The notes below the pieces were generated by a model. It was not told the DNA's origin. It saw only the letters and a program-made list of their open reading frames with translations, and did not search any database. Of a stretch of 64,000 nt of DNA, positions 15,370 through 37,130 are shown in pieces. Position 1 is the stretch's first letter. Each line of letters opens with the position of its first letter. The DNA is from Ignavibacteria bacterium (GTDB lineage: Bacteria; Bacteroidota; Ignavibacteria; Tepidaquicellales; OLB5). The stretch lies in contig JAFLBX010000001.1 in assembly GCA_017303675.1 (NCBI GenBank), forward strand, positions 1,437,970-1,501,969, written 5' to 3'. The translations under genes and the position numbers were made by a program.

Positions 15370-17913
15370 CTAAAACGTTATTTTGAATGTTGTACCTGCA
15401 GTATTTTCCATAGAAATTGTACCGTCTATTTGACCTACAAGAGTGTTAACAAGCTGCAAGCCTAGTGATTTGGTTTTTCTGTAATCAAGCTCTTTAGGGA
15501 AGCCGATACCGTTATCACTCAGGATAATTTCGTATTTCCCTTCATTTTTTCCAAATGAAATATTTATTTTACCTTTGTTATTTCCCGGGAATGCGTATTT
15601 AAGCGAATTTGATATCAGCTCATTAAGAATTAAACCGCACGGAATAGCAAGATCTATGCTTAGGTTTATATCAACAGCGTCAATTACTACCCCGATATCC
15701 CCCTGCCTTGATTTAAATACATGGAATAAATGTTCAGTAAGCTGTTTTAAATACTCTGAAAAATCAACCTCGGAAAAATCTTTTGACTGGTATAATTTTT
15801 GATGCACCAATGCCATTGAGCGTATCCTGTTCTGGCTGTCTACAAGCAGATCCAAAGATCTTTCATCTTTAACGTAACTGGATTGCAGCTTAAGCAGGCT
15901 TGAAACAACCTGAAGGTTATTTTTTACTCTGTGGTGGATCTCCTTTAATAGCAGTTCTTTTTCTTTTAATGAACGGCTTATGTTTTGTTCTGCGATCTTC
16001 CTTTCGGTAATATCGATAAGAATTCCTGATAAATATGATTCTTTTTCATTCACTTTGACCCTGAACATATGATCTTCTATCCAAATAAATTCACCGTTTT
16101 TCTTTTTTACCCTGAATTCCATGTTCAGAATTCCGTCATCGTGGTTTTTATGCCAGTTGCTTAGTGCTTTTTTTACAGCAGGCAGGTCTTCTTCGTACAT
16201 TATACTTCCGAAGAAATATTTGTTTTCCAGTACTTCAGCCGGCGAATAGCCTATCATATCCCAAATATTATCAGATATAAAATCTTTACCAAGTCCTGAT
16301 TGATAAATTACCACTTTTGGAAGGTTCTTAAGAATAGCTGAAAGCTTAGTCTCTGTTTCAAGCATTTTCAGCTGTGTTTTTTTCTGCTCTGTAATATCTA
16401 TCATGATACCGGAATAATAAGGTTTACCGCTTACCGGTCTTACTTCAAACATGTGATCTTCCAGCCAAACTACTTCGTTATTTTTATTCCGGACCCTAAT
16501 TTCGTTGCTAACAACACCTGCAGCTCCCAGTTTCTTCCATTCTGCTACTTTATTATCGTATGCAACAATATCATCTTCAAGCATTAATTCACTGAATAAT
16601 GAATCATTTTCCATAAATTTTTCAGCAGGGTAACCAAGGATATCCATTATATTTTCTGATACAAAGTTTACATTATCCCCGTATTCATAAATTGTTACAT
16701 TTGGCAGATTATTCAGTACAGCAGTTAGCCTTGCCTGGGTTTGCGCAAGCTTTTTTTCAGCTTCAATTCTGTCAGTTATATCCACAACCTGTGCTATCTG
16801 CTGAAATGGCTTGCCTGAAGTATCCCTTAAAACATTCAGTCTCAGCTCAACATAAATAATATTGCCGTTTTTATGAATATATCTTTTTTCGAAATGAAAG
16901 TTAGAGCTATCCCCGTTTAATGCTTTATTGAAATAATTATCATCTATCATTATATCATCTGGATGCGTAATATCTTCAAATGTCATTGTCAAAAGCTCTT
17001 TTTTAGAATATCCTGTGATATCGCAGTATGCTTTATTTACCTTTAAAAAACTTTTGCTCAGGTCAGTTAAAGCCATGCCAATCGGGGCATTATCAAAAAT
17101 AGACTGCAGCTGCTGCTCACTTTCTTTAAGCGCAACTTCTGCTCTTTTACGGGCAGTTATATCCCTGCCGACTGTCTGGTATTCAGAAATATTACCCTCA
17201 TTATCAAGTATAGCAGTATCTGTCCATCTTAGCCAGCGGATTTCTCCATCAGGCCTTATAACGCGGTGTGTGAACTGCCCAACAGTATTATTTTTATCAA
17301 GTGAAACAAAAAACTTCGAAAAGCGTTCTAGATCTTCTACAGGCATTTGCGGAATGTATCTTTTCCCAATCAGCTCTTCACGGGTTTTATGAAAATAATT
17401 ACAGTATACATCATTAACATATGTAAAGGTTCCGTCCGGCTTCCACCTGGTTATCATTTCTGTTTGCTGTTCTACAAGGGTTTTATAGCGTTCTTTGTTT
17501 TCCAGAAGCTCCTGTTCGGTCTGCTTCCTGTCTGTCATATCAATTAATACACCGAAGAGCGATACCGGAATATTATTTTCATATGAAATTGAAACAATAT
17601 CTTTGAACCATTTAACATTTCCGTTTGAAGCAATTACCCTGTATTCAAACTCATGGTCTTTGTTCTGCGATATGTGATATTTACTGAATTCAGAAGCCCA
17701 GCTCATGTCATCATGATGAAGATGTTCATACCAAAATCCGGGTTTGAACCAGTCATTTTTCGGGTAACCCAGAATTGATTCTGCCATTCTGCTGATATAA
17801 GTAAATCTTCTTAAAGTCAGATCAAAAACATATGTGATAACATTCAGTCCTTCGATCAGCTCCCTGAAACGGTCTTTTACTATTATATTATGATTGTTAT
17901 CTGTATAGTTCAA
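15370..17913 (-). CDS. Five-PAS sensor histidine kinase (HisKA_2 type)
   Basis: Cytoplasmic-looking sensor kinase with no clear membrane segment or signal peptide. It has 847 residues: five PAS/PAC modules in the first ~640 residues, then a HisKA_2 dimerisation box EIHHRVKNNLQ with predicted phospho-acceptor His661, and a HATPase domain with DNGIGFP. The fourth and fifth PAS modules are near copies of each other (NLPNVTIY versus NLPKVVIY, EDHMFEV versus EDHMFRV), indicating internal duplication. Such HisKA_2 kinases commonly signal light, redox or general stress. No response regulator gene is adjacent. The ligand is unknown. Confidence 0.92.
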   Translation of the reverse strand: MNYTDNNHNIIVKDRFRELIEGLNVITYVFDLTLRRFTYISRMAESILGYPKNDWFKPGFWYEHLHHDDMSWASEFSKYHISQNKDHEFEYRVIASNGNVKWFKDIVSISYENNIPVSLFGVLIDMTDRKQTEQELLENKERYKTLVEQQTEMITRWKPDGTFTYVNDVYCNYFHKTREELIGKRYIPQMPVEDLERFSKFFVSLDKNNTVGQFTHRVIRPDGEIRWLRWTDTAILDNEGNISEYQTVGRDITARKRAEVALKESEQQLQSIFDNAPIGMALTDLSKSFLKVNKAYCDITGYSKKELLTMTFEDITHPDDIMIDDNYFNKALNGDSSNFHFEKRYIHKNGNIIYVELRLNVLRDTSGKPFQQIAQVVDITDRIEAEKKLAQTQARLTAVLNNLPNVTIYEYGDNVNFVSENIMDILGYPAEKFMENDSLFSELMLEDDIVAYDNKVAEWKKLGAAGVVSNEIRVRNKNNEVVWLEDHMFEVRPVSGKPYYSGIMIDITEQKKTQLKMLETETKLSAILKNLPKVVIYQSGLGKDFISDNIWDMIGYSPAEVLENKYFFGSIMYEEDLPAVKKALSNWHKNHDDGILNMEFRVKKKNGEFIWIEDHMFRVKVNEKESYLSGILIDITERKIAEQNISRSLKEKELLLKEIHHRVKNNLQVVSSLLKLQSSYVKDERSLDLLVDSQNRIRSMALVHQKLYQSKDFSEVDFSEYLKQLTEHLFHVFKSRQGDIGVVIDAVDINLSIDLAIPCGLILNELISNSLKYAFPGNNKGKINISFGKNEGKYEIILSDNGIGFPKELDYRKTKSLGLQLVNTLVGQIDGTISMENTAGTTFKITF

Positions 17914-18858: not shown

Positions 18859-18880
18859 AAGGCTGCTTTATTCCAGCCTT
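18859..18880 (-). promoter_or_regulatory. 5' leader hairpin before tonB
   Basis: AAGGCTG and CAGCCTT form a perfect 7-bp stem with an 8-base loop in the tonB leader, ending 7 bases before the GGAGG ribosome-binding site. It may stabilise the message or affect initiation; only the inverted repeat itself is seen. Confidence 0.4.
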
Positions 18881-18953
18881 TAAAAGTTATACTTTCTGTA
18901 TTTCTTAATGTTCCTGAATATTACAGCTTGAAAAATCAGTAAGCTGAGTATTG

Positions 18954-18984
18954 TTGAAATCATTATTTATTATTCATATTTTGC
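18954..18984 (+). promoter_or_regulatory. Possible promoter of the SdiA-regulated-like lipoprotein gene
   Basis: TTG at 18954-18956, 20 bases, then TATTTTGC at 18977-18984, which matches the Bacteroidetes -7 consensus at 4 of 6 fixed positions. The exact 20-base spacing equals that of the better promoters in this window. The ATG follows 7 bases later. Confidence 0.35.
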
Positions 18985-18991
18985 ATAGAAT

Positions 18992-19927
18992 ATGAAAAGT
19001 AATTTATTCAAAATACTGGCCTTTTTTACGGTTTTAGCAATATTTTCAGCATCAGGCTGCGGTTCAAAAAAACCTCCTAAAGAAAAAGAAAATAACAAAG
19101 AGAAATCTTCGGATATTCAGCAAAAATCCAATGATAAAACCTCATCAGGTAAAAGCAGCCTGGGTGATTACAGCTTTTCTTCGGAAGAGCCTGAGCGTAT
19201 AAGTCTTCCCTCTGAGCTGATTGAAGTTTCAGGGATAACTTTTACCGGCGATAACAGGTTATTTGCTCATGGTGATGAAGACGGTGATATTTATGAAATA
19301 GACCCTGCAACAGGCAAGCTGATCAAAAATTTTTCAATAGGCAGCTTTTTAACTGTCAAAGGAGATTTTGAAGATATTGCATTTGCCCGTGGAAAATTTT
19401 ATTTGGTTGAATCAAAGGGTAAAATTTATGAATTTCCTGAAGGAAGCAGTGGTGAGCTGGTAAAGTTCAATACTTACAAAACCTTTCTAACCGAAAAAAA
19501 CGATGTAGAAGGCCTGTGTTTTGATAATGAAACAAATTCATTGTTATTGGCATGCAAAGGCTCAGGCGGAAAAGAATACGGCAAAGATAAAACAGTATAT
19601 ACATTTTCATTTGATAATATGGAACTGGATCCCGCTCCGCGTTTTATAATTTCAGGTAAAGATATAAAAAATAACAGTGCTGAAGGAAAGTTTAACCCTT
19701 CAGGGATCTCGAAAAATCCTATTAGCGGTACTTTTTTTATCATCGCAGCCAGCGGAAATACAATACTTGAAGTCTCAAAAACAGGAGAGGTACTCGATCA
19801 GGCAGACCTGCCTGAAAAAGTTCACATTCAGGCTGAAGGAATTGCTTTTAAAAGTGACGGTACACTATATATCAGTAATGAAGGAAGAGGTAAACAGGCT
19901 TATATCATAATTTATAAAATGAATTAA
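18992..19927 (+). CDS. SdiA-regulated-like beta-propeller lipoprotein
   Basis: Lipoprotein: signal peptide with SASGC, then a low-complexity charged linker (KKPPKEKENNKE) to about residue 58. The rest resembles the SdiA-regulated/YjiK family, a beta-propeller fold, with repeats such as GDEDGDIYEIDPATGKL, DFEDIAFARGKFYLVES and EGIAFKSDGTLYISNEG. It has 311 residues. A carbohydrate, nucleotide or metal ligand is possible but undetermined. It diverges from tonB. Confidence 0.75.
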   Translation: MKSNLFKILAFFTVLAIFSASGCGSKKPPKEKENNKEKSSDIQQKSNDKTSSGKSSLGDYSFSSEEPERISLPSELIEVSGITFTGDNRLFAHGDEDGDIYEIDPATGKLIKNFSIGSFLTVKGDFEDIAFARGKFYLVESKGKIYEFPEGSSGELVKFNTYKTFLTEKNDVEGLCFDNETNSLLLACKGSGGKEYGKDKTVYTFSFDNMELDPAPRFIISGKDIKNNSAEGKFNPSGISKNPISGTFFIIAASGNTILEVSKTGEVLDQADLPEKVHIQAEGIAFKSDGTLYISNEGRGKQAYIIIYKMN

Positions 19928-20008
19928 TATTTATTTCCCGGCTGTTCAGCATAATATCCATTTTTTTCAATTTGATTACCAGCTTTCATCCAAAAATCCG
20001 GAGGCCAA

Positions 20009-22696
20009 ATGTGTTTTTATAAGAAGCAGTTATTAATCCTTATATTATTTATTTATTTTTTAATTCCATATTTCATGTACTCTCAAACGCCCACTGAGTG
20101 GTTTTCAGGGTATAAAACAATTACCCCGGGGAAGGAATATGAAGCAGGAGCTATCCATGAATTATTTTTTGGCTCACACTGGCGAGAAGTTTGGATAACA
20201 CCTGTGAAGGCGGGTATTGTTGACCTTTCTAAATATGGCGGCGGATTAACCCCTACTGAAAAGGGCGGCGGACTTCAGACAAAAGCTTTGAAATTCAAAG
20301 GCAATGACGGCAAAGAATACAAATTCAGATCTTTGAATAAAGATCCTAAAAAAACCCTTCCTTTAGAGCTTCAGGAATCCATTGCTAAAGATGTGATCCA
20401 GGATCAGATTAGTTCATCAAATCCATATGCAGGTTTTGTTGTTAATCCTATACTTGATGCAGCTGGAGTTTTTCATTCTGAATATACCCTTGTTGTTTTA
20501 CCGGATGACCCGCTGCTTGGTGAATTCAGGAAAGAGTTCAGCGGCTTACCCGGTATTATGGAAATTGTGCCTGATGAAGCTCAGTTTGAAGGTTCTGATA
20601 AAGTTATTGGTACTGTAAAGCTGCTGGATAGGCTCAACAAAGAATTTGATGAATCCGTTGACAGCAGGTCATTTTTAAAAGCAAGGCTGCTTGATATTTT
20701 CTTGGGTGATTGGGACAGGCACAAAGACCAATGGAAATGGATTCGGTATGATAACGGTGATAAAAAAACATATGTACCGTTTCCAATGGATAGAGACCAG
20801 GCATTTTCAAAGTTTGACGGTTTATTGCCTTTCATTGCGGAGCAAAATGTACCACAGCTGAATAATTTTGGATACAGTTTCCCAAAACTGCGGTATATGA
20901 CATGGAGCGGGAGATACCTTGATCAAAGGTTTTTAAGTTTCCTGACTAAAGATACCTGGGATGAAGTTACAAATGATGTGCTTGGAAAATTAACCGATGA
21001 TGTTATAAAAAATGCTGTGAAACAGCTGCCGCCTGAAGTATATAATATTGCTAAAGATGAGATTATTTCTAAGCTTATATCCCGGAGAGATAATCTCAAA
21101 GAAGCTTCCGGTGATTATTATGAACTGGTAAATTCCGTTGTAGATATCTTTCTTACTGATAAGGATGATTTCATCAGGGTGGGATTTAACCCCGTTACAA
21201 ACACTTTCGATTACGGTAAAGAACAAGAGGATTTCACTGAGATAACAATTTTTAAAGGAAAGGAAAGCAGCGAAGGTATTCTGGATAAAAGTGAAATTAT
21301 CAAACAGAAAAGATTCAGCAATGAGCTGACAGAAGAGATAAGGATCTATATGCAGGATGGAGATGATGAATCCGTAATTACCGGGAAATCTGATTATGCG
21401 CCAAAAATAAGGATTATTGGGGGAGATGGCAGGGATATTGTAAAAAATTCAACCGGTGAAAATATACTTTTTTATGATGACGGAAAAAAATCTGAAACCA
21501 GCGGTAATGTATCTGAGGATAACAGTAAATATGTACCTGAATATGAAAAAATGGAAAAATATTTAAAAAGCAATAAAGACCGGATTTCAAAAGATGAAAG
21601 AAAAAAATATGAAGAGAAAATTGCTAATCTAAAATATGATCCTGTAAATCCTCCTGATAAATTCAATATGTCAAGTTTTATCCCGTTATTTTTATATAAC
21701 CCGGATATTGGTCCCTTATTTGGCGGAACTTACAGTTATCGCAAATATGGTTTCAGGATGGATCCGTATTTATATAAACTTAACTTTACTGCAGGTTACG
21801 CGCCTAAAAAAAAGAGCCTGACCGGTTTAGTGGCAGATCTGGATTTCGACTTTAACGGAATATTAAAGAATGCAACCGTTAATTTTCATTTCAGAAAGTC
21901 CGGGCTTGAAATAAATAATTACTTTGGGCAGGGGAATAATTCTTTATTCAATAATAATGAATATGAAAGTAATCAATACGAGGTTATTCATGAGGAGTTT
22001 ACTTTGGATCCATCTGTTACCTGGCCCGGAAACAGTATTTTGAATTACAGGGCTGGTATTACTTATAAAAATTTTGATGTCAAACAAAGTGATACTATTG
22101 ATTATACATTAACCGGTGTAACAACATCACCCGTAAATCTCATGGGCTTTAATGCCGGTATTACCCTTGATGCCCGGGATCATAGAACAGCCCCCTTCAA
22201 GGGATATTTCTTACAGGTAAACGGAGCTTACTTTCCCGGATTGTTTGAGAAAAATTATAGTTTTGGCAGGGTATCTGGCGACCTGAGGGGATATTTGGGA
22301 TATAAGCAAAATATATCTCTTGGCATCAGGCTATGGGGAGAAAAAATTATCGGAGATTATCCGTTTTTTGAATCAGCTTTTTTGGGAGGTTCCCGGCTCT
22401 TGAGAGGATTTGCAGGAGAAAGATTTGCCGGTGATGGTGCTTTATTGGGTTCTGCAGAGCTGAGACTAAAGCTGTTTGATATGAATATTCTTTTACCTGA
22501 AACTGTAGGGATTTTTACATTTGCTGAATCAGGAAGGGTTTTTGTAAAAGGGGAATCATCCAATTTATGGCATACAAGCTATGGTGCCGGAATTTTTATG
22601 TTTTTACTAAACCGGGATATTACATTCAGGTTCACCGCTGCAAGATCTAAAGAAAGACAAAAGGTATTTTATTTCGGAACCGGGTTTTCATTCTAA
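20009..22696 (+). CDS. Omp85/BamA-type outer-membrane barrel with kinase-like N-terminal domain
   Basis: 895 residues. Signal peptide ends near SQTPTEW (residue 25). Residues about 30-420 resemble a HipA/Fam20C-like kinase fold: a basic N-lobe-like strand set (KALKFKGNDGKEYKFRSL), then LLDIFLGDWDRHKDQW with Asp236-Arg-His238 as candidate catalytic loop and Asp261 in PMDRDQAF as candidate metal-binding aspartate. From about 590 to the end is an Omp85/surface-antigen barrel that ends in Phe. GGAGG lies 5 bases before the ATG. Related Bacteroidetes proteins sharing the GDWDRHxDQW motif are often annotated as metallophosphoesterases or outer-membrane proteins; no metallophosphatase motifs are seen here. 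The kinase reading is an inference from motif pattern. Confidence 0.75.
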   Translation: MCFYKKQLLILILFIYFLIPYFMYSQTPTEWFSGYKTITPGKEYEAGAIHELFFGSHWREVWITPVKAGIVDLSKYGGGLTPTEKGGGLQTKALKFKGNDGKEYKFRSLNKDPKKTLPLELQESIAKDVIQDQISSSNPYAGFVVNPILDAAGVFHSEYTLVVLPDDPLLGEFRKEFSGLPGIMEIVPDEAQFEGSDKVIGTVKLLDRLNKEFDESVDSRSFLKARLLDIFLGDWDRHKDQWKWIRYDNGDKKTYVPFPMDRDQAFSKFDGLLPFIAEQNVPQLNNFGYSFPKLRYMTWSGRYLDQRFLSFLTKDTWDEVTNDVLGKLTDDVIKNAVKQLPPEVYNIAKDEIISKLISRRDNLKEASGDYYELVNSVVDIFLTDKDDFIRVGFNPVTNTFDYGKEQEDFTEITIFKGKESSEGILDKSEIIKQKRFSNELTEEIRIYMQDGDDESVITGKSDYAPKIRIIGGDGRDIVKNSTGENILFYDDGKKSETSGNVSEDNSKYVPEYEKMEKYLKSNKDRISKDERKKYEEKIANLKYDPVNPPDKFNMSSFIPLFLYNPDIGPLFGGTYSYRKYGFRMDPYLYKLNFTAGYAPKKKSLTGLVADLDFDFNGILKNATVNFHFRKSGLEINNYFGQGNNSLFNNNEYESNQYEVIHEEFTLDPSVTWPGNSILNYRAGITYKNFDVKQSDTIDYTLTGVTTSPVNLMGFNAGITLDARDHRTAPFKGYFLQVNGAYFPGLFEKNYSFGRVSGDLRGYLGYKQNISLGIRLWGEKIIGDYPFFESAFLGGSRLLRGFAGERFAGDGALLGSAELRLKLFDMNILLPETVGIFTFAESGRVFVKGESSNLWHTSYGAGIFMFLLNRDITFRFTAARSKERQKVFYFGTGFSF

Positions 22697-22697
22697 G

Positions 22698-23561
22698 CTA
22701 AAATCCGTAAACAATATTTATACCGTTTATAGTGGGAGAAAAAGAGAAACCCCCGCCTTTTTTCAGCTTTTGTTTTTCATGCTTTTCCCTCTCACGCTCC
22801 CTGCTTAATACAAACATTGAAGAACCAAAACCCAAAGCTGCGCCAAAAAATACATCGCTGAACCAATGCTTATCGTAATGCAGCCTGGCATAACCTGTTA
22901 GCGCTGCAAAGGAATATAATATACCCCTGGCCCACCATGTATCAATCTGTTCGGCAAGTATTGTAGAAGTGGCAAATGCTACCACAGTATGCCCCGAAGG
23001 AAAAGATTGTGTATCACCGGCAGAATTGAACCATGAAAATTCATACTGGCTGCCCGATGAACTGAAAGGACGGTGTCTTCCAGTTGCGTATCTTAATGCC
23101 ATCGTTAGTGTACCTGAATAAACCAGTGACTGGATCAGCATTCTGCCCGTTTTTCTTAATTCACTTTCCCTTGCCAGCAGGCCGAATGTGTACATTGCTC
23201 CCCCTAAAATACTGGGATATTGTACGTAACCGTAAAAAGTCGGCCCATCCAGAAAATTTCCGGCGTATTTTTCAGGTCCGGGAACAGAAAATTCTTTTCG
23301 AATTTCGTCATCAAGCGGTGATACCAGTGCTGTTGTGCCGATAACTGCAGATGTATAAATTAAATTTTTGCTGCTTGTGAACGGAGCAGCGTAAAATGCT
23401 CCCCAGTCAATAGCGAAATATTTCAGATCATAACCAAGATCTTTAATAATAGTGGATTTTGAGTGTTTTAAAGAGTTTTTTTTAAGTGTAACAGTCGAAT
23501 CTGAATAAGAAACATAATTTATCGCTAATAAGAAAAATAGACAACCGGCTAATTGTTTCAT
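22698..23561 (-). CDS. Secreted PAP2-family phosphatase
   Basis: Lipid or pyrophosphate phosphatase of the PAP2 (phosphatidic acid phosphatase type 2) family. It has 287 residues. Signal peptide at the N-terminus; several moderately hydrophobic segments. All three catalytic motifs are seen: R157-x6-R164-P165 (RYATGRHRP), P188-S-G-H191, and R226-x5-H232-x3-D236. Candidate substrates are undecaprenyl pyrophosphate or lipid A phosphates; not resolvable here. One base separates its stop from that of the converging Omp85 gene. Confidence 0.88.
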   Translation of the reverse strand: MKQLAGCLFFLLAINYVSYSDSTVTLKKNSLKHSKSTIIKDLGYDLKYFAIDWGAFYAAPFTSSKNLIYTSAVIGTTALVSPLDDEIRKEFSVPGPEKYAGNFLDGPTFYGYVQYPSILGGAMYTFGLLARESELRKTGRMLIQSLVYSGTLTMALRYATGRHRPFSSSGSQYEFSWFNSAGDTQSFPSGHTVVAFATSTILAEQIDTWWARGILYSFAALTGYARLHYDKHWFSDVFFGAALGFGSSMFVLSREREREKHEKQKLKKGGGFSFSPTINGINIVYGF

Positions 23562-23641: not shown

Positions 23642-24688
23642 ATGTCATTTAAAAAAAATACAGCGGTCAAGCTTAAAAATATTTTATACGTGACATTTTT
23701 CGGCGGAATTATTGGTACTTTGTTTACCTGTATTGCTTTCGGGTTTGATATCGAGCGGGCAATTAAAGGTTTTATTGCAGGTATAATGATCACTTCACTT
23801 AGTGCATATTTTGAAACTTTTATTTTTAAAGGAAAATTAAAAAAGCTCAGATTCTCAATAATTTTACTGTTGCGGTCATTGACTTATATTACAATAATTT
23901 CATTTTCAGTGCTTCTGGTTTGGATAGTTCATGAATCTATGTTAAACAGCAGGGGATTAATTGCGACAATATTAACTGATGATTTCAGGAAATTTATTAC
24001 AGGGGTTTTTCCGTTTATTTTTTTATTCGCCTTTTCTTTCAGCTTTTTAATGAATTTTCTTATCCAAATTAATGACCTGCTGGGCAAAGGTGTGCTTTTA
24101 AGCTATATAACTGGTAAATATCACAAACCGAAGATGGAAGAAAGGTTCTTTATGTTCCTTGATCTTGAATCTTCAACAACTATTGCTGAAACTATAGGTC
24201 CGCTGAAATATCATGAATTCATGAACAGCTATTTTTTTGATATAAACGATCCGATCATAGAATCTAAAGGTGAAATTTATCAATATGTTGGTGATGAAGT
24301 GGTTATCAGCTGGAAAAAAAGCAGCGGCATCAAGAATCTAAACTGTATAAAGTGTTATTTTGATATTAAAAGGAAAATAGATTCACTGCAGGATAAATAT
24401 ATTAAAGATTTCGGTTTGATACCCGGGTTTAAAGGTGGTATACATTATGGCGAAGTTGTTATCGGTGAAGTTGGTGATTCACGCAAAGAAATAGTATTTC
24501 ACGGTGATGTTATGAATACTGCTTCGCGTATCCAGGGACAGGCTAAGGTGTTTAACCGGCAGCTGCTGATCTCAGAAGATGCCTTAAAATATCTGAATCT
24601 AAGGGATGTTTATAAATCTGCTGATCTTGGTATTTTTAAGCTGAAAGGTAAAGAAACAGAAACAGTTATTTATGATATTACTGAATAA
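23642..24688 (+). CDS. Membrane class III nucleotide cyclase with unusual base-recognition residues
   Basis: Predicted to make a cyclic nucleotide. It has 348 residues: about four membrane helices in residues 10-145, then a class III catalytic domain. Metal ligands are Asp174 (FLDLESST) and Asp218 (YVGDEVV), and the transition-state pair is Asn292/Arg296 (NTASRIQ). At the positions that select adenine in classical enzymes (Lys and Asp), I read Gln214 (IYQYVGD) and Val285 (IVFHGD). Similar motifs are known in Bacteroidetes-type cyclases, so the product may not be cAMP. It converges on ppk1 with 2 bases between stops. Confidence 0.88.
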   Translation: MSFKKNTAVKLKNILYVTFFGGIIGTLFTCIAFGFDIERAIKGFIAGIMITSLSAYFETFIFKGKLKKLRFSIILLLRSLTYITIISFSVLLVWIVHESMLNSRGLIATILTDDFRKFITGVFPFIFLFAFSFSFLMNFLIQINDLLGKGVLLSYITGKYHKPKMEERFFMFLDLESSTTIAETIGPLKYHEFMNSYFFDINDPIIESKGEIYQYVGDEVVISWKKSSGIKNLNCIKCYFDIKRKIDSLQDKYIKDFGLIPGFKGGIHYGEVVIGEVGDSRKEIVFHGDVMNTASRIQGQAKVFNRQLLISEDALKYLNLRDVYKSADLGIFKLKGKETETVIYDITE

Positions 24689-24690
24689 TA

Positions 24691-26757
24691 TCATTTAAAA
24701 TGCTTCATGTAATCATATATTTCATACTGAGATCTGTGATCTTGAGGGCTTTCGGTTTTACGGTATGTGTTTGTCTGCTTTTCATCAATCAATCTGGCCT
24801 TTACATTATCATTTAGCTTAATATTTACAATATGTTTTATCATGTTTTTCAGCTCGGTATTATATACCGGGAAAGCAACTTCAATTCTTCTGCTTAAATT
24901 ACGTTTCATCCAGTCTGCACTTGATAAATATATTTTTTCATCACCCCCGTTATTAAAAATATATACCCTGTCATGTTCAAGGAACCTGTCTATTATGCTT
25001 ATACCCCTGATATTTTCACTCATTTGTTTAACACCCGGAATAAGGCAGCATATACCGCGGACAATCATATTTACTTTAACCCCTGCAGCACTTGCCTCAT
25101 AAAGCTTTTTTATCATCCTTTCATCTTCCAGGCTGTTAAGCTTAATTGTTATTGCAGCAGGCAGGCCTTTTTGGGCAAATGCAATTTCATTTTCTACCAT
25201 CGCCTGGAAGCCCTGGCGCATTCCATAATGTGCAACCAGCAAGTGTTTGAATTCATACCCGTTTTCTTTGCCTTCAAGGGCTTCAAATACTTTGCCAACT
25301 TCGTCGGCCAGTTCTGGATTAGCAGTAAAAAAACCGTAATCGGTGTATAACCTAGCGGTTTTTTCATTAAAATTTCCTGTGGAAAGATATGCGTAATTTT
25401 TTTCAGTATTATTTTCCATACGCGTTATTAGGGCAATCTTGGCATGTACTTTTAATCCCGGTAAGCTGTAAAGAACCTTCACGCCGGCTTTCTGCATTTC
25501 TTCTGCGCTTTTAATGTTGATCTCTTCATCAAAACGGGCTTTAATTTCCACAAATGCAGTTACATCTTTTCCGCGGTGAGCAGCTTTTATAAGAGCGTTC
25601 ACTATCTTTGAATCCTTAGCAACCCTGTATTGTGTGATCTTTATTGATCTCACATCAGGATCTTTTGCTGCCTGTTCAAAAGCATTAATAACATAATCGT
25701 ATGACTGATAAGGAAAGTATAAAAGCTGGTCTTTTTCTGATGCTGAATCAAATATATTCTTTTTTATATCCAGCTCTTTTGATTTAAGGGGTTTCATCTC
25801 CGGGTAATTCAGCTCATTCATTCCCGGGTTCGGAAAAGTAAAAAAGTCGCTGAAGTTATGATACTTGCCCCCGGGATAAAGATCTTCATCAGAAAGTAAG
25901 AGTGCTTCTTTAAGAAAATTCAGAAATGAAGCCGGCATTGACCTGTCATACAGGAATCTTGAAGGAGCTCCGCTGGAGCGCTTTGCCAGGCTTTTTTTCA
26001 TTTTATCCAGCAGATTTCCTGAAAATTCATCTTCAATATAAAGTTCTGCATCTCGTGTTAATTTTACTGCATAAGATTCATGTACGTTATATCCATAAAA
26101 AATATTTGGCAGAAAGTAACGGATAATATCATCCAGGAACATGATATAGTTATTGTTGCCTATCTTAGGCAGAAGAATGAACCTATCAATGTGATTTGTC
26201 GGAATTTCTACAATTGCTGAAAGGTACCGCTTATTTTTTAGTTGTTTATCGGTTCTGTTATTCTGTTTTGAAGATAATTTAACGGCAAGGTAAAGCCTTT
26301 GATTCCTTAAAAACGGAGTGATCTTCTTTTTGGCAATTATCATAGGCATAATATGCGGCACAACCTGTGAATTGAAGAGTTCCGATATAAATTCTTTTTG
26401 TACAATGTTTAACTGTGTGTGATCTACCAGGTATATATTATTTTGTTCAAGCTCAGGCCTGATAACATCAGCAAATGTTTTGCCGTATTCTTCCTGCATT
26501 TTAACTACAGTCTTATGCAGCTTTTCAAGAAGCTTTTCCACATCAAACTTCAGCTCTTTTTGTGTTTTCTTTTTTAGATCCAGCAATGATCTTAAAGAAG
26601 CCACGCGAACGCGGAAAAATTCATCCAGGTTTGATGAAAAGATCGCAAGGAATTTTATTTTTTCATAAAGCGGTGTTGCAGGATCTTTTGCTTCCTGTAA
26701 TACCCGGTGATTGAATGATAGCCAGCTTAATTCGCGGTTAAAAAATTTATATTCCAT
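24691..26757 (-). CDS. ppk1: Polyphosphate kinase 1
   Basis: Makes inorganic polyphosphate from ATP, through a phosphohistidine intermediate. It has 688 residues, full length, with the four-domain PPK1 order. The start MEYKFFNRELSWLSFNHRVLQEA is the family N-terminus; the catalytic region has VEIKARFDE and PGLKVHAKIALITR, whose histidine is the autophosphorylated residue, followed by YLSTGNFNEKTARLYTDYG. It begins inside the end of the sixA-like gene (11-base overlap), so both are probably expressed together. Confidence 0.97.
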   Translation of the reverse strand: MEYKFFNRELSWLSFNHRVLQEAKDPATPLYEKIKFLAIFSSNLDEFFRVRVASLRSLLDLKKKTQKELKFDVEKLLEKLHKTVVKMQEEYGKTFADVIRPELEQNNIYLVDHTQLNIVQKEFISELFNSQVVPHIMPMIIAKKKITPFLRNQRLYLAVKLSSKQNNRTDKQLKNKRYLSAIVEIPTNHIDRFILLPKIGNNNYIMFLDDIIRYFLPNIFYGYNVHESYAVKLTRDAELYIEDEFSGNLLDKMKKSLAKRSSGAPSRFLYDRSMPASFLNFLKEALLLSDEDLYPGGKYHNFSDFFTFPNPGMNELNYPEMKPLKSKELDIKKNIFDSASEKDQLLYFPYQSYDYVINAFEQAAKDPDVRSIKITQYRVAKDSKIVNALIKAAHRGKDVTAFVEIKARFDEEINIKSAEEMQKAGVKVLYSLPGLKVHAKIALITRMENNTEKNYAYLSTGNFNEKTARLYTDYGFFTANPELADEVGKVFEALEGKENGYEFKHLLVAHYGMRQGFQAMVENEIAFAQKGLPAAITIKLNSLEDERMIKKLYEASAAGVKVNMIVRGICCLIPGVKQMSENIRGISIIDRFLEHDRVYIFNNGGDEKIYLSSADWMKRNLSRRIEVAFPVYNTELKNMIKHIVNIKLNDNVKARLIDEKQTNTYRKTESPQDHRSQYEIYDYMKHFK

Positions 26758-27250
26758 TTTTAAACATTTTTGGATAGATGAAGTATTGTAAATTTCCTTT
26801 AGTATTCTGAATCTCCTGCCAGTTTTTAATTACAAAACTTATCTTGACTATTCCGCAGGTAGGAATATTTTGAATATCTGAATTACTTATATAATTTGCA
26901 AAATCTGTAATTCCGTAGTTATGGCTGAATAACATGACATTTTTATGATCTTTATTGATATTTGAAATAACATCAATGAACTCATTTATTCCGGCCATGT
27001 AAAGATTTTTGTTAACTTCTATATTCTTTGTTTTATAGTCCAGCTTTTCTGCAATTAATTTGGCGGTTTTTAAAGCTCTTTTAGCGGGACTTGAAATGAT
27101 CAAATCCGGGAATTCCTGCTTGTTTTTTAGAATATTTCCCATTAAAGGAGCGTCATTTTTACCCCTTTCATTCAACGGACGTTCTTTATCTGCTAAACCG
27201 GGTTCAGACCAGCTGGATTTGGCATGCCTGCATAAAAATAAGTTCATCAT
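26747..27250 (-). CDS. sixA: SixA-type phosphohistidine phosphatase
   Basis: Histidine-phosphatase-superfamily protein with the catalytic RHG-like motif at the N-terminus (LFLCRHAKSSW), the arrangement of SixA, and ISSPAKRALKTA and MLFSHNYGI motifs for the other active-site residues. The ATG at 27250 gives 167 residues; a longer in-frame start at 27307 would place coding sequence over the TAATTTTG -7 box at 27259-27266, so the shorter start is preferred. It overlaps ppk1 by 11 bases. SixA removes phosphate from histidine in phosphorelay proteins; a role linked to polyphosphate metabolism is possible. Confidence 0.88.
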   Translation of the reverse strand: MMNLFLCRHAKSSWSEPGLADKERPLNERGKNDAPLMGNILKNKQEFPDLIISSPAKRALKTAKLIAEKLDYKTKNIEVNKNLYMAGINEFIDVISNINKDHKNVMLFSHNYGITDFANYISNSDIQNIPTCGIVKISFVIKNWQEIQNTKGNLQYFIYPKMFKNGI

Positions 27251-27258
27251 AAGAATAA

Positions 27259-27266
27259 CAAAATTA
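27259..27266 (-). promoter_or_regulatory. -7 element of the sixA-ppk1 unit
   Basis: TAATTTTG on the minus strand is a full match to TAnnTTTG, 8 bases before the sixA ATG. No TTG lies at the 20-base spacing, so the -33 half is weak. Confidence 0.4.
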
Positions 27267-27312
27267 ACTAAATATAATTTATAATAATACTGAAATTGAA
27301 ATGACAATTAGT

Positions 27313-28340: not shown

Positions 28341-29645
28341 TTATGCCGGTGGTGTACTTGAATAGTTTAACAGGATAGCAATAATATAAGCCAGAACCGA
28401 TGCTACCAGACCATACATGAAAATGCTGTAACATACCCTTAAATATTTGAATTTTCTTCCTACTGCCTGTCCTAAAAAGTAAAAATCTTTTACCATAGAG
28501 CTGTATAAGTAATCTTTATCGTGCATCATTTCATCCATACCCCACTGAAAGTCATCAAGTGGCATATTGAAAAAATTTCCAAAGAAAAGCAGGTTGGTTT
28601 TTCTTGATTTTATATCTTCCTGCGAAAAAACTCCTGTTGAAATTTTCGGTTTTGTTACAAGTATCCCGAATATTATGCAGGAAAGACAAACTGTTAATAA
28701 CATTACAGTTGGAATAAGCAAAAAGAACTGTGAATCTTCCTGCATTTCTGAAAAAAGGTTAGTCAGTATCAAACTGATAATAAGAGTGTTTACAGTTATC
28801 ATAATATTCGCTTTACTGTCAGCCATTGCTGAAAACTCTACATGAGTCCTTACAGTATTGCGGAACATCGTTTCGATCCCGCGTTCTGCTACTTTAGCTG
28901 ATTCTTTTTTGAAAGCGATCTTTTCTTTTTCAACTGCCAGCTTCTCTTCATCTTTTCTTGAAGCAATTTTCTGCCGTTCAATTTCTAGCTTTTCTTTTTC
29001 GAATTCAAGCTTGGCTTTTTTCCCGGCTTCATCGTTTGCCTGCTGTAATAATTTTCTGTAATTTTTCTGAGCCTTTAAAAGATTAATTGATTGCTGCTGA
29101 GAAAATTTCCTGCGGGCATATTGAGTAAAAAACCTGTGGGTTGAAAGAAGGTCCACACTGGCTTTATACCAGTCAGCTTCGCTGACATGGTTTATACCCA
29201 GGGTTTCCCATTCAGTTTTTAATAGCTCTGAATATTCAAAAAAATCTTCCTGCCCAAAATGTATAAGATCGGCGTCGCAAATTACCTGTTCCATCAGGTT
29301 TTGAGGCGCTTGCGGCATTTTGGTTGAATTGATACAGCCCAATACGAGGTTTATTTTGCCGGGATCATAATTATGTTCATTCAGAAATTTTGCGGCAATT
29401 TCTTTTCCAGCATCTTCATGCCCGTTATATGTTACCGTGTAACCGGAGTCGTGAAACCATGCTGCAAGTGTTACTATTTCCAGTTCGCTGTCATTTAAAC
29501 CTGACTTGGTTCCTATTTTTATTGAATTGTTAACAACATCAAGGGTATGAGCATAGTTGTGATAGATCATGTTTGGTGAAAGTTTTTCACTGAACAGATC
29601 TGAAATGAAATTTTCAGCAGCCTTTATAATATTTACATGAGGCAT
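28341..29645 (-). CDS. HD-domain phosphohydrolase fused to Pycsar-type transmembrane domain
   Basis: 434 residues in three parts. Residues 1-170: HD-superfamily hydrolase with metal ligands His33 (NYAHTLDV), His65-Asp66 (WFHDSGY), His76 (NGHEDAG) and Asp124 (VICDADL). About 195-265: highly charged coiled coil. About 265-434: a transmembrane module beginning VEFSAMADSKANIMITVN with two pairs of hydrophobic segments, the pattern of the Pycsar effector family (DUF5706/Pycsar_TM). HD proteins of this type may cleave a nucleotide second messenger. Family members without a neighbouring cyclase are common in Bacteroidetes-like chromosomes, so a defence role is not established. A perfect-spacing promoter precedes it. 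Confidence 0.85.
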   Translation of the reverse strand: MPHVNIIKAAENFISDLFSEKLSPNMIYHNYAHTLDVVNNSIKIGTKSGLNDSELEIVTLAAWFHDSGYTVTYNGHEDAGKEIAAKFLNEHNYDPGKINLVLGCINSTKMPQAPQNLMEQVICDADLIHFGQEDFFEYSELLKTEWETLGINHVSEADWYKASVDLLSTHRFFTQYARRKFSQQQSINLLKAQKNYRKLLQQANDEAGKKAKLEFEKEKLEIERQKIASRKDEEKLAVEKEKIAFKKESAKVAERGIETMFRNTVRTHVEFSAMADSKANIMITVNTLIISLILTNLFSEMQEDSQFFLLIPTVMLLTVCLSCIIFGILVTKPKISTGVFSQEDIKSRKTNLLFFGNFFNMPLDDFQWGMDEMMHDKDYLYSSMVKDFYFLGQAVGRKFKYLRVCYSIFMYGLVASVLAYIIAILLNYSSTPPA

Positions 29646-31312: not shown

Positions 31313-32296
31313 TTGAAATCTAAATTATTAAAATTCACAAAGCTTGGGCTTTACTGCCCCCGTGCAGATCTTTATATTGATCCTGCAGGAAAGACAAATA
31401 AGGCAGTTATTACACATGCTCACAGCGATCACGTCAGGAGAGGTTCAGCTAATTATTTAGCTCATCCTGTAACTGCTGAACTTATAAAGCACCGGCTTGG
31501 AAATAAAATAAATGTTCAGGGGCTTGAATACGGTAAAGTTATAAATATTAACGGTGTAAAAATATCTTTACATCCTGCGGGACATGTTCCGGGCTCTTCA
31601 CAGGTAAGGCTTGAAAGTTCAGGGGAGATAGCTGTGATAAGCGGTGATTATAAAACTGAAAATGACAGCTTAAGTACACCATTTGAGCCTGTAAAATGCA
31701 ATTTGTTCGTAACTGAATCAACCTTCGCTTTGCCTGTTTATAAATGGGAAGAGCAGGAAACAATTTACAAACAAATCAACAATTGGTGGGCAAGAAACAG
31801 CTCAGCAGGAATTGTTTCAATTCTTTGCGGCTACTCAATAGGCAAAGCACAGAGAATAATTAAACACCTCGATACAACACTTGGTAAGATCTATACGCAT
31901 TCAGTAATTGAAGATGTAAACGATATTCTGAGAAGATGTAATTTAAATCTGCCGCGAACATACAGAATTAATGAAAACGCTTCTTATGATGAACTGAAAG
32001 GGAACATAGTTATAGCACCGCCTTCATTTACAAATAGGGAGTGGCTAAGCAATATCCGTAAATATTCGATCGGGTATGCATCCGGATGGTTTAAAACACG
32101 CAGAGCTTGGGGCAGGCAATCCGTTGATATAGGTTTTGTATTATCAGATCATTCAGATTGGGATGGCTTAAACAGATCAGTGCTTGATACCGAAGCAGAA
32201 ATTGTTTATGCAACTCATGGTTTTACGGGGCAATTTGTTAAGTATCTCCGTGAAAACAATATTGATGCATATGAACTGAATAACCATGAAGTGTAA
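31313..32296 (+). CDS. Ligase-associated DNA exonuclease (metallo-beta-lactamase fold)
   Basis: DNA-end processing nuclease of the ligase-associated repair cluster. It has 327 residues with the metallo-beta-lactamase metal motif T-H35-A-H37-S-D39-H40, plus GHVPGSSQV and ISGDYKTE. Translation starts at TTG; there is no in-frame ATG nearby. It is the first gene of four and overlaps the ligase gene by 11 bases, so coupled expression is likely. Founding descriptions come from other bacteria; the exact DNA substrate here is inferred. Confidence 0.92.
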   Translation: MKSKLLKFTKLGLYCPRADLYIDPAGKTNKAVITHAHSDHVRRGSANYLAHPVTAELIKHRLGNKINVQGLEYGKVININGVKISLHPAGHVPGSSQVRLESSGEIAVISGDYKTENDSLSTPFEPVKCNLFVTESTFALPVYKWEEQETIYKQINNWWARNSSAGIVSILCGYSIGKAQRIIKHLDTTLGKIYTHSVIEDVNDILRRCNLNLPRTYRINENASYDELKGNIVIAPPSFTNREWLSNIRKYSIGYASGWFKTRRAWGRQSVDIGFVLSDHSDWDGLNRSVLDTEAEIVYATHGFTGQFVKYLRENNIDAYELNNHEV

Positions 32297-33908
32297 ATAT
32301 GAATATAGAACAAAGGGTATATGGAGTAACGGAATATTGAAAAACTTTGCTGAACTTTGTTCTTTGCTGGGGCAAACTGCTAATACAGAATATAAGGAAC
32401 TACTTCTGTTTGAATACTTAAAAAATTCAAATGAAGAGGATATTCTTTGGGCTATGTTTCTGCTTTCCGGTCACAAATTACAAAAATTAGTAAGTATCGG
32501 AGATATCTGGAATATCTTATCAGAACATTCAGGAATTCCTCAGTGGTTAATTGATGAATCATTTTTGATTAGCGGTGATAAAGCTGAAACGATTTCTTTA
32601 ATAATGCAGCAGCAAAGTTCTGATAAGAGATACTCTCTTTCTGAAATAATGCTATATATTGAAGAATTAAAACAATTTGAACTATCTGTAATATTCGAAA
32701 AAATTATCGTTATTTTAAGTAAGCTTAATACGGATGAAAAATATTATTTCATAAAGCTTGTTAACGGAAGTTTTAACCCGGAAATTGAAATCAGCTCAAT
32801 TGTAAATATCCTTATAAAAATGTATAAAACAGATGAGGTATCAGCATACCATCTGCTGAAAAATATTGACCCCTTTCAAAAAAAATTAAAGCCAATTTTA
32901 TCTCATTATAAAAAATATAAAGATACATTAAAAATATATCCTTTTTGTACTACCTGTGAATTAAATAATTCTGAAGTTATTACCACTGCATTTAAGGACT
33001 GGCAAATTGAGTGGAAATGGGACGGACACAGGGTACAATTTGTGTATAGAAATAATGAATTGCTAGTGTGGTCCAGGCATAATGGATTGATTACAGAGAA
33101 ATTTCCTGAATTTTATCAAATTACAAGAGACTTACCAAATGGAATTGTGATAGAAGGAGAAGTTATAGCATTCAGCAGCGGCAAACCCTTACCGTATAAT
33201 ATTCTTTTTGACAGGCTGAAAAGTAAAACCATTTCAAAAGCTGTGACAAGTGAAGCTCCTATTACGCTTATAGCTTATGATTTACTGGAATATAATGGAA
33301 TAGATCTGCGGGAAAAGCCGTTGGCCGAGCGGCGGAAGCAGCTTGAGCAGCTATTGTTAATACTTGGAAGCCAAAATGTCATATATCCTTCCCCGGTATT
33401 AGAAGTCAGATCATGGAAGTCGCTTAACGAAATTAAAACTTCACTCCCGCAATACTGCAAAGGCATCATTTTAAAACGTCTCGATTCAGCTTATTTATCC
33501 GAAGGGAACAGGTTTAGCTTGAATAAAGAGCCATTTTCTGTTAATGGAGTTTTATTATATGCTCAACGGGGATCCGGAATTGGTAACTTTTATGATTTTA
33601 CCTTTGGTGTTTGGGATGAAGGTAAACTCATTACATTTACTAAGGTCAGGAATAATTTAACGGCAGATGATCTAATTGAAGTAGAAAATTTCATCAAAGA
33701 AAATACTCTCGAAAAATTCGGACCTGTTAGAATCGTAAAGCCGGAACTTGTTTTTGAGTTACACTTTCAAGGGATTGCGGGTTCGAAAAGACATAAAGCC
33801 GGTATAACACTCAGGAACCCGGAAATTAACCGCTGGTTAAAAGATAAAAAGCCTCACGATGCCGGTCATTTAAATGATCTGAAAGAGATATTAAATGCAG
33901 GCAAATAG
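32286..33908 (+). CDS. ATP-dependent DNA ligase of the ligase-associated repair cluster
   Basis: Nick-sealing ligase. It has 540 residues: N-terminal alpha-helical DNA-binding region (about 1-200), nucleotidyltransferase domain with motif I K244-W-D-G (EWKWDGHR), motif IV-like VIEGEVIAF, and a C-terminal OB domain with RHKAGITLRNPEI. The 11-base overlap with the exonuclease and 14-base overlap with the helicase place it in a tightly packed unit. A main NAD-dependent ligase is expected elsewhere in the genome, outside this window. Confidence 0.95.
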   Translation: MKCKYEYRTKGIWSNGILKNFAELCSLLGQTANTEYKELLLFEYLKNSNEEDILWAMFLLSGHKLQKLVSIGDIWNILSEHSGIPQWLIDESFLISGDKAETISLIMQQQSSDKRYSLSEIMLYIEELKQFELSVIFEKIIVILSKLNTDEKYYFIKLVNGSFNPEIEISSIVNILIKMYKTDEVSAYHLLKNIDPFQKKLKPILSHYKKYKDTLKIYPFCTTCELNNSEVITTAFKDWQIEWKWDGHRVQFVYRNNELLVWSRHNGLITEKFPEFYQITRDLPNGIVIEGEVIAFSSGKPLPYNILFDRLKSKTISKAVTSEAPITLIAYDLLEYNGIDLREKPLAERRKQLEQLLLILGSQNVIYPSPVLEVRSWKSLNEIKTSLPQYCKGIILKRLDSAYLSEGNRFSLNKEPFSVNGVLLYAQRGSGIGNFYDFTFGVWDEGKLITFTKVRNNLTADDLIEVENFIKENTLEKFGPVRIVKPELVFELHFQGIAGSKRHKAGITLRNPEINRWLKDKKPHDAGHLNDLKEILNAGK

Positions 33909-36417: not shown

Positions 36418-36440
36418 TTCTAATATAACAGAGACTACTT

Positions 36441-37130
36441 ATTAAACGGGATAACTTTCATAACATTACCCTTTTTGATGAAGAGCTGACTTTGCTTCCT
36501 TACAAAGCTATTTACATTGAAAAGCATAAAACACTTATTGTCAGCGATATTCACCTGGGCAAGGTAGGACATTTCAGAAATGCCGGTATAGCTATTCCCG
36601 GCGGTCTTGCTGAAGCTGACCTGGTTACGCTTGATATGATATTACAGGAAATTGATGTAAATGAATTATTCGTGCTTGGAGACTTATTTCACAGCGGGGT
36701 AAATTATGATGTAAGGCTGTTTGATGCATGGCGTGATGTTCATCATAATATCGATATCAATCTGGTTAAGGGAAACCATGATATAATGTCAGATGAAATA
36801 TATTCCCATTTTGAAATACGCCTTCATAAAAAATATTTTTTATGGAACCGCTTTTTGTTTACCCATAAACCTTTGGATGAATCCGTACAGCTGAATGGAT
36901 GCGACTATGTTTTCTGCGGGCATATCCACCCGGGTGTGAGACTTATAGGCAAAGGAAAACAGGCAGTAAACCTGCCGTGTTTTCATTTCACTGAAAAGCA
37001 GTGTGTTTTGCCTGCATTTGGTGAGTTTACAGGTAAATGTATTGTAAAGCCTAATGGTAAAGACAGGGTTTTTGTTGTTGCTAAGAGTGAAAATGATTAT
37101 GCTGTATTAAAAGTAGATAAAAATATTTAA
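36441..37130 (+). CDS. pdeM: Ligase-associated metallophosphoesterase PdeM (start codon uncertain)
   Basis: Calcineurin-like phosphoesterase of the repair cluster. Metal-site motifs in order: VSDIHLGK, LGDLFHS, VKGNHD, THKP and FCGHIHPG. The first ordinary start is TTG at 36492, giving 212 residues, but the in-frame sequence before it (NITLFDEELTLLPYKA) continues the family's conserved N-terminus back to a stop at 36426. No ATG, GTG or TTG exists in that stretch. ATT at 36441 would give about 229 residues. The listed start is therefore a hypothesis; a sequencing slip is the alternative. Confidence 0.85.
   Translation: MKRDNFHNITLFDEELTLLPYKAIYIEKHKTLIVSDIHLGKVGHFRNAGIAIPGGLAEADLVTLDMILQEIDVNELFVLGDLFHSGVNYDVRLFDAWRDVHHNIDINLVKGNHDIMSDEIYSHFEIRLHKKYFLWNRFLFTHKPLDESVQLNGCDYVFCGHIHPGVRLIGKGKQAVNLPCFHFTEKQCVLPAFGEFTGKCIVKPNGKDRVFVVAKSENDYAVLKVDKNI

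Follow-up and report, generated by a model that had tools for sequence, protein, structure and literature searches.

Heinz and Lithgow defined the 'Metallo' and 'noNterm' groups of Omp85 proteins in 2014, and fusions of an Omp85 barrel to PF00149 were already described in that study (PMC4104836). That study termed PF00149, which is a family of metallophosphoesterases, a metalloprotease; neither "kinase" nor "phosphoesterase" appears anywhere in its text. The protein described here shares a C-terminal Omp85 barrel with the 'Metallo' subfamily, and its relatives of 1200+ amino acids (aa) contain PF00149, whereas the protein itself lacks the PF00149 that 'Metallo' proteins carry in the chain. PlpD, a patatin-Omp85 protein, likewise has an enzyme domain ahead of its Omp85 barrel but differs in its enzyme and in having one POTRA.

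Among kinases, CotH (PF08757; PDB 5jd9/5jda) has a kinase-like fold and an equivalent motif and targets structures outside the cytoplasm, but it is a spore-coat kinase without a barrel and without the DRHxxQW form of the loop. The CtkA/HipA kinases (3akj; PF07804) include the best fold match, CtkA, with DRH aligned by sequence, but they are cytoplasmic or injected and have no barrel. Fam20C and Fam20A have a secreted atypical kinase fold, with active copies beside inactive paralogues; these kinases are eukaryotic, match the fold less well, and have neither barrel nor phosphatase. Full-text searches of the open-licence literature returned no reports of a kinase fold with Omp85 or of polyphosphate kinase (PPK) with SixA and a metallophosphoesterase, and kinase and phosphatase are unmentioned in a paper on the F. 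johnsoniae BAM (PMC12611786).

The window analyzed here is a stretch of 64,000 nucleotides from an Ignavibacteria bacterium (GenBank assembly GCA_017303675.1, contig JAFLBX010000001.1, forward-strand positions 1,437,970 to 1,501,969). An initial annotation had proposed that a kinase-like enzyme joined to an Omp85 barrel in this window would be a new arrangement. This holds in that a kinase domain inside the known Omp85-phosphoesterase family appears to be undescribed; the Omp85-PF00149 fusions were known (PMC4104836), and the layout is common rather than unique to the window.

Domain layout of the window protein

The open reading frame at 20009-22696 (+ strand) starts with ATG and encodes a protein of 895 aa (the window protein). 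It is the single copy of the kinase-Omp85 gene in the genome, and its nearest named relatives come from Ignavibacteria assemblies (80% identity, locus L072). A predicted signal peptide without a lipobox cysteine, MCFYKKQLLILILFIYFLIPYFMYS, occupies residues ~1-25 (20009..20083, +), and signal-peptide-like hydrophobic N-terminal stretches were also found in most other family members. The kinase-fold domain, supported by the AlphaFold2 (AF2) model and by Foldseek, follows at residues ~27-400 (20087..21208, +); these limits were set because barrel-less members of 423-425 aa consist of that domain alone. According to the model and family comparison, residues ~377-503 (21137..21517, +) form a beta-rich domain, which is present in barrel-bearing members and missing from the 423-425 aa proteins. 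A low-confidence linker at residues ~504-551 (21518..21661, +), with pLDDT < 50 across most of its length, takes the place of POTRA domains and leads into a 16-strand Omp85/TamA-type beta-barrel predicted by Pfam, AF2, and Foldseek at residues ~552-895 (21662..22693, +).

Pfam matched Omp85 (PF01103) at residues 642-895 (E 5.6e-13, 49.5 bits with a cut-off of 24) and gave zero matches in the N-terminal half. NCBIfam returned a sub-threshold Omp85 family match and nothing else. The full-length AF2 model (pLDDT 85.0) contained 16 C-terminal strands, the beta-rich domain, and the linker, which was disordered. These results bear out the initial annotation, which had placed a complete Omp85 barrel after the N-terminal domain. 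Foldseek matched the full-length model to BamA and TamA, with TMt 0.72-0.73 for the TamA barrel alone. The window protein thus combines two hallmarks of the Omp85 superfamily, a 16-strand C-terminal barrel with a profile match and the loop-6 motif (V/I/L)RG(F/Y). The motif is LRGF at residues 798-801 (22400..22411, +), equivalent to the Omp85 loop-6 VRGF/Y; in F. johnsoniae BamA the form is LRGY (PMC12611786). Neither Pfam nor the modeled secondary structure showed, ahead of the barrel, a POTRA of the kind that characterizes BamA, TamA, and PlpD. From the even strand number, the signal peptide, and the established Omp85 topology, we infer that the N-terminal domain of the modeled protein faces the periplasm.

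Predicted kinase fold and putative active site

Residues 27-500 were modeled by AF2 with a mean pLDDT of 93.7 and a pTM of 0.93, using an alignment of 61 relatives (A1). A Foldseek search against the PDB gave 17 matches with E <= 0.001, every one a kinase fold. The top match was CtkA (E 1.8e-6, TMt 0.50-0.55); the Foldseek probability was 1.00 for CtkA, PI4KII, CotH, and HipA and 0.99 for Fam20, with RIO, PI3K-like, and ordinary protein kinases ranking below these. A HipA/Fam20C-like kinase fold had been suggested from the sequence, and these matches agree with it, although Fam20C is not the closest fold: the Fam20 match (4kqa) ranked 10th (E 9.6e-5), after CtkA, PI4KII, and CotH. The likeness to known kinases goes no further than the fold (TM about 0.5, identity 12-14%). 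The model thus places the window protein, by its predicted kinase fold, in the atypical kinase-like superfamily.

Sequence comparison, though less strong than the structural matches, connected the domain to the same kinases. By phmmer, residues 209-315 matched CtkA at E 0.022 with DRH aligned on DRH. A phmmer search of the PDB with the full window protein yielded weak, chance-like JmjC matches, which were discarded, and CtkA at E 0.26, and a PDB search with the A1 profile gave nothing significant (best E 0.2). In hhalign comparisons, the family aligned with CotH at P 1.7e-4 (score 45.1; reversed control 22.3) and with HipA at P 1.5e-3 (score 35.0; reversed control 16.8); for comparison, the profiles of HipA and CotH, which are both placed in the Pfam kinase clan (PMC9758233), aligned with a score of 47.2. 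All Pfam kinase families remained below threshold across the 61 relatives. The CotH model (PF08757) did not match the window protein and matched two of the 61 relatives weakly (best E 0.023), and HipA_C (PF07804) matched neither the window protein nor anything else in its genome. Taken as predictions from model and sequence, the kinase fold and the architecture of the window protein are well supported.

Where the family has GDWDRH...FPMDRD, CotH relatives have GNWD...IPYDYD, and the CotH motif N-[WF]-D...P-x-D-x-D corresponds to the family's DWDRH...PxDRD. The motif stretch of a CotH relative matched the solved B. cereus CotH by phmmer at E 4e-10, and counting along the alignment puts the two Asp residues of that protein near chain positions 224 and 247. 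The D228Q variant of B. subtilis CotH is catalytically dead (PMC7821199), and D228 is probably the first of the two aligned motif Asp residues.

Conservation was calculated over 71 relatives, which had been picked by overall similarity and not by motif; loci L072-L151 were left out of the DRH counts because they had been fetched with a DRH-containing pattern. The catalytic-loop motif, D229-x3-GDWDRHxxQWxW, lies at residues 229-244 (20693..20740, +), with D236 as the putative catalytic Asp. Conservation was 99% for D229, 96% for D234, 97% for W235, 87% for D236, 96% for R237, 85% for H238, 90% for Q241, and 99% for W244. The predicted metal-binding loop, PxPMDRDQAF...G, lies at residues 257-271 (20777..20821, +); here D261 was conserved at 92%, D263 at 89%, and G271 at 100%, and W242 and R262 were likewise within the 85-100% range. 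Nearer the N-terminus are a glycine-rich loop region, GGLTPTEKGGGLQ, at residues 78-90 between predicted beta1 and beta2 (20240..20278, +), and R107, which closes predicted beta3, together with K111 (20327..20341, +); this stretch apparently marks the position of the kinase beta3 Lys. D132, in an alphaC-like helix (20402..20404, +), is 96% conserved and may be the salt-bridge acid. Most positions of GGL (78-80), GGG (86-88), Q90, R107, K111, and D132 were 85-100% conserved. In the model, R107 would occupy the usual Lys position and D132 the usual Glu position.

The initial annotation had singled out GDWDRHKDQW (Asp236-Arg-His238) and PMDRD (Asp261); both motifs sit where it placed them, the second also containing Asp263. 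It had named two outcomes that would refute it, no kinase-fold match or DRH residues that vary within the family; the Foldseek matches were kinase folds, and DRH and Asp261 proved to be conserved among the 71 relatives. D236 and D261 align by sequence with the CtkA and CotH motifs. Judged from its conservation, the DRH/Asp261 motif is not due to chance, and the protein has the putative catalytic Asp and metal Asp of the atypical kinase superfamily.

Besides the similarity being confined to the fold, features of the site count against a kinase reading: Q241 (90% Gln) replaces the usual catalytic-loop Asn, and an Arg apparently stands at the beta3 Lys position. Fam20-type kinases likewise depart at the catalytic-loop Asn. 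Like other kinase-fold enzymes that lie outside the standard family, the enzyme might instead catalyze another transfer, such as AMPylation or glutamylation, or its phosphate acceptor might be a small molecule, a glycan, or a lipid, for instance LPS, with the barrel positioning the enzyme at the membrane lipid. Family-wide conservation of the unusual residues Q241 and R107 is consistent with this, as are a PI4-kinase among the top structural matches and the known AMPylating and glutamylating kinase folds and the xylose kinase Fam20B (PMC7948968). However, the Asp/metal-Asp layout is that of the phosphotransferases CotH and CtkA, and the linked gene encodes a phosphoesterase; we regard this alternative as rather unlikely.

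Family architectures and degenerate paralogues

Within the phylum, 110 of the 296 genomes sampled carried the kinase-like domain, which also appeared on genome contigs from Gemmatimonadota, Calditrichota, and one Acidobacteriota bin. Three layouts were observed: kinase-barrel proteins of about 850-960 aa, to which the window protein belongs; proteins of about 1200-1400 aa in which a metallophosphoesterase (PF00149) at the N-terminus precedes the kinase and barrel; and shorter, barrel-less forms with a signal peptide or membrane anchor. The 423-425 aa barrel-less members have a transmembrane segment at the N-terminus. In two genomes (loci L055 and L057), 423 aa barrel-less members have as same-strand neighbors a 481 aa ORF plus a 428 aa ORF of a PAS-type cluster; the arrangement may be a sensor operon.

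Since the barrel-less relatives begin with a transmembrane anchor or a signal peptide, the domain appears to work outside the cytoplasm. These relatives also bear on whether the kinase domain is brought to the cell surface through the barrel by PlpD-like type V secretion, as PlpD, another enzyme-Omp85 fusion, has been proposed to export its own enzyme domain (PMC4104836). Such a role is very unlikely for the window protein, which lacks a POTRA; moreover, N-terminally anchored or barrel-less relatives indicate that barrel export is unnecessary for the role of the domain.

According to Pfam, PF00149 is absent from the window protein and present in 1240 aa relatives. The phosphoesterase is homologous in 58 fused relatives, is encoded by a separate gene directly upstream in four loci (L077, L078, L087, and L125), and lies within an upstream 722-aa ORF in another (L090). 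Its metal-binding motifs were intact in all five proteins checked. Fusion in some relatives and an adjacent gene in others constitute a Rosetta-stone link between the kinase and the phosphatase. A search of the window's genome, run with no positive control, gave no match to the linked phosphoesterase elsewhere, a point against the explanation proposed below.

The site has been lost in about nine relatives (L026, L030, L031, L060, L061, L062:5476-8115, L063, L070, and L071), and most cases of non-conservation at DRH/Asp261 are proteins missing the whole site. The glycine loop, R107, K111, D236, H238, and D261 disappear jointly (Fisher p 1e-3 to 6e-12), and eight degenerate members fall at four places in the tree, one of which is a clade of five. 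In L062, the degenerate copy immediately precedes an intact copy. Two genomes of one genus (L052 and L053) contain clusters of two or three barrel-less members, in which one member has DWSRR instead of DWDRH with intact ones alongside, like active/pseudokinase pairs. Judged from sequence, the joint loss in some paralogues follows the pattern of pseudokinases. The possibility of inactive kinase folds raised in the initial annotation thus applies to these paralogues but not to the window protein, which retains the full residue set. A pseudoenzyme, serving as a nucleotide- or polyphosphate-binding sensor or scaffold without turnover, is in keeping with degenerate paralogues that occur in several lineages beside intact copies (L062, L052, and L053). 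We consider it improbable, however: the site is complete and strongly conserved in the main family, including the window protein, and loss of its elements together is expected if catalysis is the norm.

Gene neighborhood and proposed role

Directly upstream of the gene, across an 81 bp gap, lies a predicted SdiA-regulated-like lipoprotein (18992..19927, +; PF06977, E 2.8e-10). Downstream are a convergent PAP2 phosphatase (22698..23561, -; PF01569), a class III nucleotide cyclase (23642..24688, +; PF00211, PycC-like in PADLOC), polyphosphate kinase PPK1 (24691..26757, -; four PPK Pfam domains), a SixA-like histidine phosphatase (26747..27307, -; PF00300, TIGR00249 below cut-off), and a membrane protein with HD and PycTM domains (28341..29645, -; PF01966 and PF18967). 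In a non-random choice of 120 loci around family members, the most frequent neighbor was HD-PycTM (55-60 loci), followed by SdiA-regulated-like (40), PPK1 (29-31), SixA (18-20), the cyclase (15), and the PAP2 phosphatase (12).

At least 23 of the 110 genomes had PPK1 within 15 kb of the family gene, where about 1 was expected, and at least 8 had it within 6 kb, where 0.4 was expected; this genome sample was similarity-based, and among the at least 23 genomes with a nearby PPK1 listed, 14 belong to one family (f30) with PPK1 11-12 kb away and are not independent. Since 272 of the 296 genomes encode PPK1, its mere presence alongside the family is uninformative and was set aside; proximity alone was used.

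The PycC-like cyclase and the PycTM-like HD protein stand about 4 kb apart and flank PPK1 and SixA, and the recurrence of HD-PycTM beside the kinase-Omp85 gene suggests a Pycsar arrangement of the housekeeping kind, not one of mobile defence. Judged from translations, the ORFs at 31313-37130 (+) form a row similar to the ligase-helicase (Lhr-type) cluster known from DNA repair: a metallo-beta-lactamase-type nuclease comes first, then an ATP-dependent DNA ligase and a large DEAD/DEAH helicase, and last a calcineurin-type phosphoesterase. In one genome of the class (G019:C15), a CotH-family gene (16534-17403) lies about 1.5 kb from a kinase-Omp85 gene (18872-20197), which could be chance.

The TamA/BamA-type barrel with its LRGF loop-6 motif might also suggest an outer-membrane protein assembly factor, with the N-terminal domain as a docking module standing in for POTRAs. 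A docking module would not be expected to keep a kinase site under strict conservation or to be linked with PPK1, SixA, and the phosphoesterase, and we give this explanation hardly any credence.

With modest confidence, drawn from model and alignments, we propose that the window protein is an atypical kinase that is anchored in the outer membrane, faces the periplasm, and belongs, usually together with a phosphatase, to an envelope module linked to polyphosphate. Its Omp85-type 16-strand barrel would be the outer-membrane anchor, and on the periplasmic side an atypical kinase domain resembling those of CtkA, HipA, CotH, and Fam20 would replace the POTRAs. D236 would act as catalytic base and D261 as metal ligand, while the glycine-rich loop and R107/K111 may bind nucleotide or phosphate. 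Phosphate would most likely be moved to an envelope substrate, whether protein, glycan, or lipid. Because the calcineurin-type phosphoesterase appears fused in most Bacteroidota relatives and as an adjacent gene in others, the two enzymes would work as a reversible pair. The conserved neighbors PPK1, SixA, HD-PycTM, and cyclase suggest ties to polyphosphate and cyclic-nucleotide signaling. Against the proposal, the periplasm is not known to contain ATP; polyphosphate or exported ATP is perhaps the donor, a guess prompted by the gene neighborhood. The analysis shows the predicted fold, the conservation, the architecture, and the synteny; the topology, catalysis, donor, and substrate given here are what we infer for the window protein. 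More tentatively, and with considerable doubt, kinase and phosphatase on one outer-membrane barrel might, as a conserved envelope system, reversibly phosphorylate periplasmic or outer-membrane targets by means of polyphosphate or exported ATP, coupled to cytoplasmic polyphosphate and cyclic-nucleotide signaling through the neighboring PPK1, SixA, cyclase, and HD-PycTM genes.

If the proposal is correct, a kinase, often with a phosphatase, would sit at the outer membrane on its periplasmic side, a location for which no phosphate donor is established, and this placement would span a large part of Bacteroidota, Ignavibacteria, and several more phyla. A large Pfam-blank region of an abundant protein family would gain an assigned fold and a probable active site, and the link of this region to polyphosphate genes would make envelope phosphorylation testable by point mutants.
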